Source: a virus
DNA: 39,729 nt
Virus record (IMG/VR): IMGVR_UViG_3300048919_000152
Location: 1-39,729 of that record
Reading direction: 5' to 3' (one strand)
The translations under genes and the position numbers were made by a program. This document shows positions 5,762 through 23,437 of this stretch, one piece after another; positions within the stretch are counted from its first letter, which is position 1, and every line of letters starts with the position of its first letter. Below the pieces are notes generated by a model. It was given only the letters and a program-made list of their open reading frames with translations. It ran no database searches and had not been told where the DNA came from.

Positions 5762-5774
5762 GTTACCGCCGTCA
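5762..5774 (-). promoter_or_regulatory. Copy 1 of the recurrent 13-bp late element TGACGGCGGTAAC
   Basis: Exact match. Its TGA is the stop codon of the DUF6950-like gene. The first ATG downstream (5729) is 45 nt away, and the tail-tip start is 65 nt away. Confidence 0.75.
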
Positions 5775-6170
5775 AACGCGCCAGGCCATCTGCCAATCCT
5801 TGCGCGGCACGCGGACGAGACCCCCCGGTAGTCCGACGAAATAGGCGAATTCGCCCATACAGACCCCGGTCGAACCATCTGAGAGTACCAGGTCGCCACG
5901 ATGCGCGAGCGATGGCGGGACAGGTTCGCCGAGCTTGGCGGTGACGAGTGCGGGGATGTCCGCGAAGCCCTTGGCACGGATGAGGCGCAACCCGGATGTC
6001 AGCGACTTGTACTTCCGTCGGTACCCGCGCGCGTAATCCTTGCCGGTCTGGGCTTTCACGCTATTGGCGCCATGGAGGATGCAGTCGTGGGCGCCGAAGC
6101 CATACGCCTTGCCGCGGACGCTATCGAGATAGCTGGCGAGGCGGGCCTCCCAATCGAGCAGCCGCGTCAT
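5772..6170 (-). CDS. DUF6950 / NlpC-P60-like tail-tip peptidase candidate
   Basis: This 132-aa protein has GFGAHDCILHGANSVKAQTG near the N terminus and AHRGDLVL near residue 90. Cys inside HDC, followed by a later His before GDLV, is the signature of DUF6950 and NlpC/P60-like proteins next to alphaproteobacterial tail tips. Such proteins are thought to cut peptidoglycan during DNA entry. It overlaps the upstream gene by ATGA. Its stop codon lies inside a copy of the 13-bp late element, so the next cistron probably has its own control. Confidence 0.8.
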   Translation of the reverse strand: MTRLLDWEARLASYLDSVRGKAYGFGAHDCILHGANSVKAQTGKDYARGYRRKYKSLTSGLRLIRAKGFADIPALVTAKLGEPVPPSLAHRGDLVLSDGSTGVCMGEFAYFVGLPGGLVRVPRKDWQMAWRV

Positions 6171-6802
6171 CGGGTAAAACTGAAAGGATCGGGCGTCGCA
6201 ATCCCGAGCGCGGCCGTGGTGAGGTTCGACGCGTCCGTGCCATTCGCAATCGCGATAGCCGCCTCGGCCGAGTGATCGCCCGAATCGAATTCCGCCTGCG
6301 ACAGATAGGTTCGGTTGCTCGCCTGGGTCAGCGATGCGAGGTACGATTCGGCCGTAAGCTGAATGACCGAGCCATCCTTCGCGAAATGATAGGTCGGCAC
6401 GTTCATATAACCCGTGAAATAGGCATCCGGACGCCCGTACATCTGGAAACTATCGTTGAACATGGCGCGCCAGAGCCGCACCACCCGCCCGCGATAATTG
6501 GCCAGATTGCCGAATTCCGTCATGATCTCGCTGTCGTTGACGATGATCGCGGAGAGGGTGAAGGTCACCGTGTCGGCGCCGCGCTCGTTCAGTTGAACGT
6601 CGCTGACGCCGATCGGCTGATTGTCGATAGGTGAATAAGTGTGGCCGTCGAGATCCTCGTCGCCGGTATCCGAGAACGCGACGCCGTAAGGGCAGTCGGT
6701 CAAACGCATCGGCTCGTCGCCGAAGTCGATCAGCGCGAACCGGAAGGGTCGGATGACCGGGAGGTCTAGGGCTGCGCTGTGGTCAGGATCGAGGCGCGAC
6801 AT
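6167..6802 (-). CDS. Baseplate hub-like protein, DUF2163-type
   Basis: The 211-aa protein is beta-rich with a GTA-like context: it follows the distal-tail-like protein and precedes the NlpC/P60-like gene, matching the gp12-gp13-gp14 order of gene transfer agents. Segments such as YRGRVVRLWRAMFND and DAYFTGYMNVPTYHF resemble DUF2163 hub proteins, which assemble under the tail tube. It joins the upstream gene by TGATG and the downstream gene by ATGA. The family call is from overall appearance and context. Confidence 0.65.
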   Translation of the reverse strand: MSRLDPDHSAALDLPVIRPFRFALIDFGDEPMRLTDCPYGVAFSDTGDEDLDGHTYSPIDNQPIGVSDVQLNERGADTVTFTLSAIIVNDSEIMTEFGNLANYRGRVVRLWRAMFNDSFQMYGRPDAYFTGYMNVPTYHFAKDGSVIQLTAESYLASLTQASNRTYLSQAEFDSGDHSAEAAIAIANGTDASNLTTAALGIATPDPFSFTR

Positions 6803-7416
6803 CAGAACGCCTCCTCACACGTGAAACCCGTCTTTATGTCGGTATCGATACGGAATTCGTCCCAGCTTATCGTATTGTCCGAAAAACTGGTGTTGTCGTC
6901 GGCGAGCGCCATGATCGCGGTTGGGATATCCACGACAAGCGCGGATCCATTGGCGGGAGAGGACCTTAGCCACCGCTCGAAGTGTAACGTGGCCGCTCCC
7001 GACGCGGAAACGACGTCGGCCGTCAAACGCATCAACTGGTCATTCACGGTGACGAACTGGCCGCGCCGCAGCTTGACGCCGGATGTTCCCCATCCAGCGG
7101 TCACGAGATTATAGCCGATCTGCGCAGCGCCGTTGACGGTGGGTGTGACACCGACGATCTGCGGGCGCCGAACGACCGGGAGCCGGAACGTGTTGGCTCG
7201 GCCCTGCAAATCTGCAAAAAATGCGTTCCATGCCCAAAAGCTTTCCTCGTCGAGGATCTCGATATCAGGAACGTCAGCCGTCCACATGGCCGCAGCGGGC
7301 AAGATCGCGACCTTGCGCTTGTTCGTCCATTCCGAACGGTTGACTTCGGTCGGTTGCTGATAGCGCCAGTTTATGCCGGCGAGCGGCGGGCACGTCGGCA
7401 TCGCGATGACCGTCAT
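6802..7416 (-). CDS. Distal tail protein-like, 204 aa
   Basis: This gene starts at the tape-measure stop (TGATG) and is the first gene after it, the normal place of the distal tail protein (Dit, DUF2460-like) capping the tube. The N terminus contains WRYQQPTEVNRSEWTNKRKV, followed by a region rich in aromatic and beta residues (FWAWNAFFADLQGRANTFRLP) of a kind common in Dit-like proteins. No catalytic motif is visible. Function is assigned by order and fold appearance. Confidence 0.65.
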   Translation of the reverse strand: MTVIAMPTCPPLAGINWRYQQPTEVNRSEWTNKRKVAILPAAAMWTADVPDIEILDEESFWAWNAFFADLQGRANTFRLPVVRRPQIVGVTPTVNGAAQIGYNLVTAGWGTSGVKLRRGQFVTVNDQLMRLTADVVSASGAATLHFERWLRSSPANGSALVVDIPTAIMALADDNTSFSDNTISWDEFRIDTDIKTGFTCEEAF

Positions 7417-9098
7417 CAGCCCAGGCTCCCCGGCATACGCGGTCGGGCCGCGGCCTTCTGAACCTGCTGACCGGCAGAGAACGCGGTTTGGCCGGCGAGC
7501 GCCGCCTGTTGCGCTGAGCGGTTCAGGATTTGCTCTGCGAATCCGTCGGGGTTGACCGAGTTGCGCGCATCGACGCTGATATGTTGGACGACCGTCGTAC
7601 CGCCGCCACCCTGCGCAGCCTGCATCCGGCCAAGCGGGATGACGTTGCCCGAGCCGGTCGGGACGAAACCCTCCACCTTACCGGGCGACGCGCCTTCGTT
7701 GACGCGGATCATCTGGCCGCCGGGAACGTAGCCACCGGACGCGCGACCCAGCGTAGCTGAAAACGCTTTGCCGAGGTTGCCGAGGATGTTGCCAACACCA
7801 CCGCCGCCCTTGGCGAACTGCAGAACAGCGAACCGCGCGAGCAGGAGGGCCAACGTCTTCAACCCCTCGCGCTCGAACGTCTTCCAGATCGACCCGGATC
7901 CGCCGACGAACGCATTTTCGAATAGGTCGGCCAGCCTTACGACATCTTTCTCCTGTTGCTGGAAAACCCTCTGCTGGGTTTGCAGCTTTCGGCGCTCCGC
8001 CTCATCCTCAGAGTCCAAGCTCTGATCGATCCGACGATCAGACGCCCCGACCGTGTCTTGAATGCCGCCAGGGCGCTTGAGGATTTCATCGGCGCTGGGC
8101 TGATTTAACCCCTCCGCCTTCATTGCAGCCGCGCGACGCGCGATGTCGGCGCCACTGGAATAAGCAGCGGCGGTCGTGGCGTCGATTAGCCCCGCAGATT
8201 TTAGATCGCTGATATCCTTTAGCACATCGTAGTATTCGCGCGCCGATGCGGCCAGTGGATCGAACGCCGCCTGCAACTTCACGACGTTGGATTTCAATTC
8301 CTCCTGGCGGCGTTTTGCGTCGGCGTCCGCCTTCGTTCGGTCGGAGTCGGCCTTGGATTCCGCTTTCCGGCGCGCTTCCTCGGCGTCGGCGGCGTCTTTT
8401 GTAGCCTTCGCCGAAAGCTTATCGAGATTGAGCCGCACCCGGATAGCATCAGCCTCGGCCTCATACTCTCTCTTGAGCGAGCCGAGACCGCTACCCCGCT
8501 TAAACTTCTGCTTGTCGCCTGTTTCCGGGTTAATTCCGCGAGCGATAAGATCGAGGTTACCGTTGATCTGGGCTAGGCGATTTTGATCTTTTAGCGCCCC
8601 GGGATCGATATTGGCGAGACGTGTCATCGCGGCGACATAGCGATCCAATTCGGGCTGCGCCTTCGCCGCAGCGTCTCCCGTTTCAAGCATTTTGCCCGCG
8701 AGCACGCCCGCGATTGAACCAGCAGCAAGCAGCGCGGCGCCCCACGGCCCGGCAAAGAACGCCGCGACGCGCGCGGCCTTGCCGCCGGTGTCTGCGAGTG
8801 CGTCCGCTACTTGCGGTGCCTGCTGTGCGAGGATCAGGAACGGGGACTGCCCCCCGGCGAGCTGCGTCCCGATATCGGAAATCTGCCGGCCAAGATTGCG
8901 AGTGGCGTTCGCGGATCGGGCCGAGTTGATCGATACCACGTCACCGGAGCGCTTGACCGCCGCGTCACCTTTCGCGGCCGACCGCTCGACCGAGGTCATG
9001 CTGCTGTCGAACGTGCGCGCGTAGCCTGTAACGTTGGCGCTCGCCTTATCGACGTTCGCGATCAGATCTACGACGACGCTGTCTGCGGTTGTGGACAT
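7416..9098 (-). CDS. Tail tape measure protein
   Basis: The 560-aa protein has the usual layout of a short tape measure. The N terminus reads DLIANVDKASANVTGYARTF, then comes a hydrophobic stretch near residues 110-135 (AFFAGPWGAALLAAGSIAGV). A long charged helical rod rich in Ala, Lys, Glu and Asp follows (about 200-400), then a Gly-rich C terminus (RASGGYVPGGQMIRVNEG). It follows the frameshifted chaperone pair, as in lambda G/GT-H. The length predicts a short non-contractile tail. A 13-bp late element lies 44 nt before the ATG, and no Shine-Dalgarno sequence is visible. Confidence 0.9.
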   Translation of the reverse strand: MSTTADSVVVDLIANVDKASANVTGYARTFDSSMTSVERSAAKGDAAVKRSGDVVSINSARSANATRNLGRQISDIGTQLAGGQSPFLILAQQAPQVADALADTGGKAARVAAFFAGPWGAALLAAGSIAGVLAGKMLETGDAAAKAQPELDRYVAAMTRLANIDPGALKDQNRLAQINGNLDLIARGINPETGDKQKFKRGSGLGSLKREYEAEADAIRVRLNLDKLSAKATKDAADAEEARRKAESKADSDRTKADADAKRRQEELKSNVVKLQAAFDPLAASAREYYDVLKDISDLKSAGLIDATTAAAYSSGADIARRAAAMKAEGLNQPSADEILKRPGGIQDTVGASDRRIDQSLDSEDEAERRKLQTQQRVFQQQEKDVVRLADLFENAFVGGSGSIWKTFEREGLKTLALLLARFAVLQFAKGGGGVGNILGNLGKAFSATLGRASGGYVPGGQMIRVNEGASPGKVEGFVPTGSGNVIPLGRMQAAQGGGGTTVVQHISVDARNSVNPDGFAEQILNRSAQQAALAGQTAFSAGQQVQKAAARPRMPGSLG

Positions 9099-23288: not shown

Positions 23289-23311
23289 GATCATTCTCCA
23301 TCAGGATTATC

Positions 23312-23388
23312 GGGTTGCGGGGGGCGGATTTGAACCGCCGACCTTCAGGTTATGAGCCTGACGAGCTACCGGGCTGCTCCACCCCACT
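23312..23388 (-). tRNA. Initiator tRNA, tRNA-fMet (CAT)
   Basis: The sequence folds as a complete tRNA. The acceptor is AGTGGGG with CCCCGCA (A1-A72 unpaired, the initiator hallmark; U3-G70 wobble) and the D-arm is AGCCCGGTAGCTC. The anticodon loop is CTCATAA with CAT, and the T arm is GGCGGTTCAAATCCGCC. The anticodon stem carries AGG/CCT instead of the three GC pairs GGG/CCC of E. coli. The 3' end is A-CCC, so CCA would have to be added. A late element is 49 nt before its 5' end. It lies between terminase and portal. Confidence 0.9.
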
Positions 23389-23424
23389 TCGACGGACGGA
23401 CGATGCGGGGTGGAGGCGCGGGCA

Positions 23425-23437
23425 GTTACCGCCGTCA
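23425..23437 (-). promoter_or_regulatory. Copy 8 of the 13-bp late element, before the tRNA
   Basis: Exact TGACGGCGGTAAC. Its TGA is the stop codon of the large terminase gene. The next feature is the initiator tRNA, 49 nt downstream, which argues against a purely translational role for the element. Confidence 0.75.

Follow-up and report, generated by a model that had tools for sequence, protein, structure and literature searches.

A repeated 13-bp word as a probable phage-specific late promoter element in a group of alphaproteobacterial phages, with p80 as candidate activator

The 13-bp word TGACGGCGGTAAC is repeated upstream of late genes in the virus record IMGVR_UViG_3300048919_000152 and is, from sequence comparison, best read as a phage-specific late promoter. 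The stretch analysed, called the window below, is this record of 39,729 bases; its late block encodes the portal, a head protein, the protease, the capsid, virion and tail proteins and the tape measure. The joint reading, given a probability of about 0.7, is that the word forms the -35-region half of the late promoter and would be bound by p80, a small protein encoded in the same phage, that the -10 element is weak, and that the late mRNAs are leaderless. A sequence-only reading of the window had already suggested a late promoter or activator site, and the conserved geometry in related phages and the phage specificity of the word both support it. To that reading the analysis adds a -10 signal hidden in the sites, transcripts that are likely leaderless, p80 as candidate activator, and variants of the word that follow p80.

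Seven exact copies of the word are found on the minus strand, starting at 5762, 9130, 10305, 12488, 15288, 22945 and 23425, and an eighth copy at 18612, on the same strand, has one mismatch. These coordinates reproduce those of the sequence-only reading, as do the recomputed distances from the first T of the word (T1) to the ATG (45, 44, 48, 43, 45, 45 and 45) and to a tRNA gene (49). At three copies, ending at 5774, 9142 and 23437, the open reading frame coordinates show that the gene upstream takes its stop codon from the word. A ninth site, TGACGGCGGTAAG at 15563-15575, had been overlooked; its predicted GTG start at 15526 is 49 nucleotides from T1. With up to three mismatches allowed the word has 35 matches in the window, against 13.1 +/- 3.7 in shuffled sequences (largest 22), and the core CGGCGGTAA is present in eight copies where 0.35 are expected. 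An explanation by chance or composition, in which GC-rich coding sequence merely happens to repeat, can draw on a scan for one copy followed by an ATG, which matches many viral contigs, mostly with a single copy. Because of these matches a lone word before an ATG is not diagnostic. The counts above all shuffles, however, already refute this explanation, and across phages the copies keep their strand, their spacing and their place before orthologous genes; its probability is negligible.

The word is shared by related phages. Four related viral records contain 6-8 copies of the 12-mer each, on a single strand. In the genome of Allopontixanthobacter sediminis (Sphingomonadales, 3.2 Mb) the 12-mer TGACGGCGGTAA occurs eight times, on one strand throughout, and seven of the eight copies are inside 128.5-149.7 kb of one contig, where a related prophage lies. 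Rather than being spread over the host genome at similar density, the word is therefore phage-specific. Upstream of structural genes in related phages, where the sequence-only reading had proposed a search, the word is found on the coding strand and at the same distance before the orthologous portal, protease and other late genes, and in several relatives also before a virion protein gene with a MAYT start. Since de novo word counts over all ATGs were swamped by the GC-rich background, the words were obtained instead by extraction anchored on orthologous genes together with a constrained pattern. More divergent relatives have a related word in the same place, namely AGCGTCGGTAA (class B), TNNCGTCCGTAG (class C), GCGAACCTAC (class D) and CGGCGGGAA (class F), the word of the window being class A. 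The number of sites is 6-9 per phage. Two phages related by TerL (L122 and L145) have no word; they share little with the window besides the terminase genes and are therefore not counted against the system. No match to the 13-mer or to a similar system was found in the literature, most subscription papers being outside the search.

The sites have a fixed internal structure. The distance from T1 to the ATG is 44 or 45 in 118 of 142 unique sites, which places the ATG at position 45 or 46. In an alignment of 122 non-redundant sites on T1, 77% have A at position 34 and 45% have T at position 33. Because A34 holds at every ATG distance from 43 to 48 (P ~1.5e-49, kinship uncorrected), it is anchored to the word rather than to the start codon; the lone site with a distance of 49 lacks A34. 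The A at position 34 fits the -11A of a weak -10 element, with the T at position 33 as -12T. Read in this way, these two positions give a predicted transcription start at position 45, which is the ATG itself or one base before it. The word would then cover about -44 to -32, with TAAC at the -35 position and 17 bases from there to the -10. In the window, A34 is present at eight of nine sites and A35 at the remaining one. The earlier statement that no normal -10 box is seen is in view of this A correct only in part. A sigma-70 scan found no consensus promoter at the sites.

Genes that follow a site lack Shine-Dalgarno sequences. Their median Shine-Dalgarno energy of -2.1 kcal/mol resembles that of shuffles, against -5.85 for the other genes in the window (P=5e-4), and a Shine-Dalgarno-like 4-mer is present in 13 of 122 sites. 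For this reason the late messages are probably leaderless. Leaderless mRNAs are common in Alphaproteobacteria, where they are also efficiently translated, with 375 in Caulobacter and 171 in Sinorhizobium meliloti (PMC4117421) and 119 in Zymomonas (PMC7566282). These host messages are scattered over the host genes (PMC4117421, PMC7566282), whereas leaderless messages would apparently be the rule for the phage late regulon.

The fixed distance to the ATG, the dense packing of the genes and the three sites overlapping stop codons could also be explained by a word that acts in RNA, as an intercistronic element in a single long late transcript, where it would direct ribosomes or the processing of the RNA. 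Against this, the A34 signal is anchored to the word and not to the start codon, and the stretch from T1 to the ATG shows no stable fold (z +0.2 to -1.65). In addition a tRNA gene carries the same element with the same spacing and a terminator-like hairpin precedes the portal site. These last two observations favour a promoter over an RNA element, and the latter is considered highly improbable.

An iterative profile search identified p80 as a member of a protein family of 70-110 amino acids that adjoins the terminase genes in the site-bearing relatives. In the window it is encoded at 25492-25734 on the minus strand (80 amino acids, helix-turn-helix-like core predicted). When TerL relatives 8 kb or longer are compared, at least two sites are present in 11 of 18 with p80 and in 0 of 41 without it (Fisher P=1e-7). 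At the p80 loci the core CGGCGGTAA occurs 122 times on the p80 strand and six times on the other, and 92 of the copies on the p80 strand are followed by an ATG at 43-48. The TerL relatives that lack p80, 690 kb in all, contain two copies of the core, neither of them before an ATG. The protein is found once per genome, within a prophage, in A. sediminis and in a Sphingopyxis genome. A site is located 44-46 bases before the p80 gene itself in L126, L131, L152, L257, L262 and L296 (twice in the last), and before the gene upstream of TerL, probably TerS, in L126, L129, L131, L133, L152 and L153. The portal and capsid of the phages with a site before p80 or the TerS-like gene are unlike those of the window; the word thus travels with p80 and not with the structural genes. 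From these associations p80 is probably the activator of the sites. Four other proteins, p153 (25731-26192), p72, p112 and p154, were rejected as regulators because the class A phage genomes in the comparison lack them. Set against its homolog in L194, the p153 gene (25731-26269, minus strand) has an apparent frameshift near 26150, with the N-terminal part in 26066-26269 and the remainder in 25731-26192.

The word also varies together with p80. On a tree of 60 p80 proteins, 54 of them with a word, the word classes change six times, compared with a minimum of 14 changes in 200 shuffles, and more than one word class is found in just two p80 loci. Class A and class C words are close together in one sub-branch (the window, L266, L277 and L279 versus L188, L194 and L267-L270). 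Because they adjoin there, the word predicted from the nearest neighbour is wrong for 10 of 54. The nearest relative of the p80 of the window is L266, which has class A.

These results bear on the possibility that another factor, either a different protein of the phage or an alternative sigma factor of the host, reads the late promoters, and that p80 has some other role, such as one in packaging, and accompanies the late block. The usual position of p80 beside the terminase genes and its unmatched fold are in keeping with this. A host sigma factor would use the word throughout the host, yet nearly all copies in A. sediminis are confined to the prophage. For another phage protein, p80 is the sole gene, terminase and head-tail genes aside, that is common to all five site-bearing phage genomes compared (with the iterated profile a looser relative is picked up in G016 too), the link between p80 and word holds despite different portal and capsid, and the word changes with the p80 clade. 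Another factor is therefore regarded as unlikely, though deserving some weight.

No supported match to p80 was found in Pfam, NCBIfam, PHROGs or the PDB sequence families. A comparison of 46 members with Pfam, NCBIfam and PHROGs gave no Ogr/Delta, MotA, ArpU or RinA family with support, and there was no match in Pfam to a sigma domain (sigma-70 or extracytoplasmic function) for these proteins of about 70-110 amino acids. The AlphaFold model has four helices with a mean pLDDT (predicted local distance difference test) of 80, and about 91 in the core, where the predicted helices 29-36 and 40-50 are spaced as in a helix-turn-helix and suggest such a motif. One unnamed viral prediction was matched by the model in Foldseek.

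A DNA-binding p80 could also be a repressor that covers the -35 region and keeps the late genes silent in the lysogen. Repressors too can act at the -35 position, which the word overlaps, and the sites before p80 itself would fit autorepression or autoactivation. The sites have no recognisable -35 consensus and a poor -10, however, as expected for activator-dependent promoters, and a CI-like S24 repressor is encoded separately. Repression by p80 is thus very unlikely.

Under the preferred reading, an activated late promoter, p80 would bind the word at about -44 to -32 and hold the host RNA polymerase, presumably with the housekeeping sigma factor, at a weak -10 of which hardly anything beyond -12T/-11A is left and which follows the -35 position after 17 bases. 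Transcription would begin at the ATG or one base earlier, and from such a start leaderless late mRNAs are proposed to follow. Eight or nine promoters would in this way serve the portal, protease, tape measure, tail and other late genes and the tRNA, and in several relatives p80 would also activate its own gene.

Several observations weigh against this reading. The p80 tree was built on 51 columns and is poorly resolved, and the loci that served to define word classes B, C and D also entered the counts. Of the 122 cores on the p80 strand at the p80 loci, 30 are not followed by an ATG at 43-48. Among class C sites the share with A34 drops to 54% and that with T33 to 4%. In sequence, the putative recognition helix of the p80 of the window resembles several class C proteins more closely than it does most proteins of class A, and the p80 gene of the window has no site of its own. 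The p80 profile catches loose relatives, such as one in L145 and extra copies in L243 and L249. Finally, Foldseek matched no solved structure to the p80 model, and DNA binding by p80 is therefore put forward as a prediction.

Known systems offer parallels for a phage protein that may replace a poor -35, as in T4 MotA, lambda CII and GafY, and a family link was found to none of them. The MotA protein of T4 activates promoters in which its box stands in place of the -35, and it works with the host sigma factor and a strong -10. Here box and protein differ, no family match is found and the -10 is weak. Lambda CII is a small activator of several promoters that recognises two TTGC direct repeats around the -35 (TTGC-N6-TTGC), spaced by roughly one turn of the helix. 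The consensus words here tentatively show similar direct tetranucleotide repeats, TGAC-N5-TAAC and, in class C, TAGC-N5-TAGC. The 46 p80 members gave no CII match in Pfam, though, and the genes concerned are structural rather than lysogeny genes, with mRNAs that are probably leaderless. The late activators of the RinA, ArpU and Ltr type in phages of Gram-positive bacteria are small regulators encoded just before the terminase genes and usually act on one late promoter; p80 has a similar gene place, but with 6-9 sites per phage and no family match. GafY of Caulobacter and GafA of Rhodobacter, which activate gene transfer agents, are phage-derived activators in Alphaproteobacteria, as is proposed for p80 (PMC11150451). 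Through RpoD domains 3-4, GafY aids RNA polymerase at about 18 promoters with a degenerate -35, and its own gene is also a target. It requires IHF and binds at a far upstream position, and chromatin immunoprecipitation sequencing yielded no motif for it (PMC11150451). The comparison of GafY and GafA with p80 was made by Pfam and NCBIfam family profiles only, and no supported family reaches p80.

The nine sites of the window, all on the minus strand, differ in what follows them. The site at 5762-5774 has A34 at 5741 and is upstream of a 7-codon mini-ORF (open reading frame; ATG 5729), the stop of which overlaps the start of the gene for a tail protein of 928 amino acids (2923-5709, minus strand). 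At 9130-9142 TA is present at positions 33-34 and the predicted start is the ATG of the tape-measure gene (9098). The site at 10305-10317 also has TA at 33-34; its short ORF (ATG 10269) overlaps the gene at 9804-10253. After the first and third of these sites (ending at 5774 and 10317) the first ATG thus starts a short ORF that overlaps the true gene start (5709 and 10253), not the gene. The overlapping short ORFs, at 5709-5729 and 10253-10269 on the minus strand, suggest leaderless mini-ORFs coupled to the next gene. The sites at 12488-12500 and 15288-15300 are upstream of a virion protein gene (12026-12457, ATG 43 nucleotides from T1) and of a gene at 14257-15255 (ATG 45 nucleotides from T1). 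In the site at 15563-15575 the G at position 13 is common among related phages. The mismatched site TGACGGAGGTAAC at 18612-18624 precedes the head maturation protease gene (17476-18579). The site at 22945-22957 is upstream of the portal gene (20465-22912) and has its -10-like A shifted by one base. About 10 bases before it ends the terminator-like hairpin (22967-22995, minus strand; GCCGCCG, a 10-base loop, CGGCGGC and TTTTT), which was read from the sequence as its loop exceeded the length limit of the hairpin scan.

The last site, at 23425-23437, has the same geometry with A34 present and is upstream of a tRNA-Met gene with anticodon CAU (23313-23388, minus strand), 49 bases away. By its resemblance this is probably an initiator tRNA. 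An initiator-like tRNA-Met is likewise found 49 bases after a site in L120 (11842-11918), and a phage tRNA of this kind could favour leaderless translation. As a general component of the system the initiator tRNA was rejected, the arrangement of site and tRNA being found only in the window and L120. A more far-reaching version, in which p80 would found a new class of promoter-recognition factor with a -35 role for a leaderless late regulon, the word would repeatedly have switched alongside the protein, and in some members the promoter would also supply an initiator tRNA that favours leaderless messages, is speculative and seems improbable.

Some further observations were made in the relatives and in the window. 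In L126 a class A site (2124-2136) is upstream of an excisionase-like helix-turn-helix gene, so the regulon may extend past the late genes. The p80 locus of L279 contains about 20 copies, on one strand, of a repeat with CTTTGATGGAC that is unrelated to the site. Two phages recorded as infecting Synechococcus, L294 and L295 (OM868076.1 and PP438430.1), have p80, word F and head-tail genes related to those of the group; their true host may be an alphaproteobacterial contaminant of the culture. The window also contains an O-antigen acetylase gene (33395-35308, plus strand), likely a lysogenic conversion gene.

For a large group of alphaproteobacterial phages the results offer an account of how late genes are controlled that can be put to the test; no description of this kind was found in the searches. 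They also name a protein family that is absent from Pfam, NCBIfam and PHROGs. The five word classes and more than 50 p80 proteins with a word are natural variants that could reveal a recognition code, and the sub-branch with class A and class C words is a place where a switch in specificity could be dissected. If the reading is confirmed, the late genes of p80 phages would be predictable from sequence, and these phages would be a natural test of the translation of leaderless mRNAs by their hosts.

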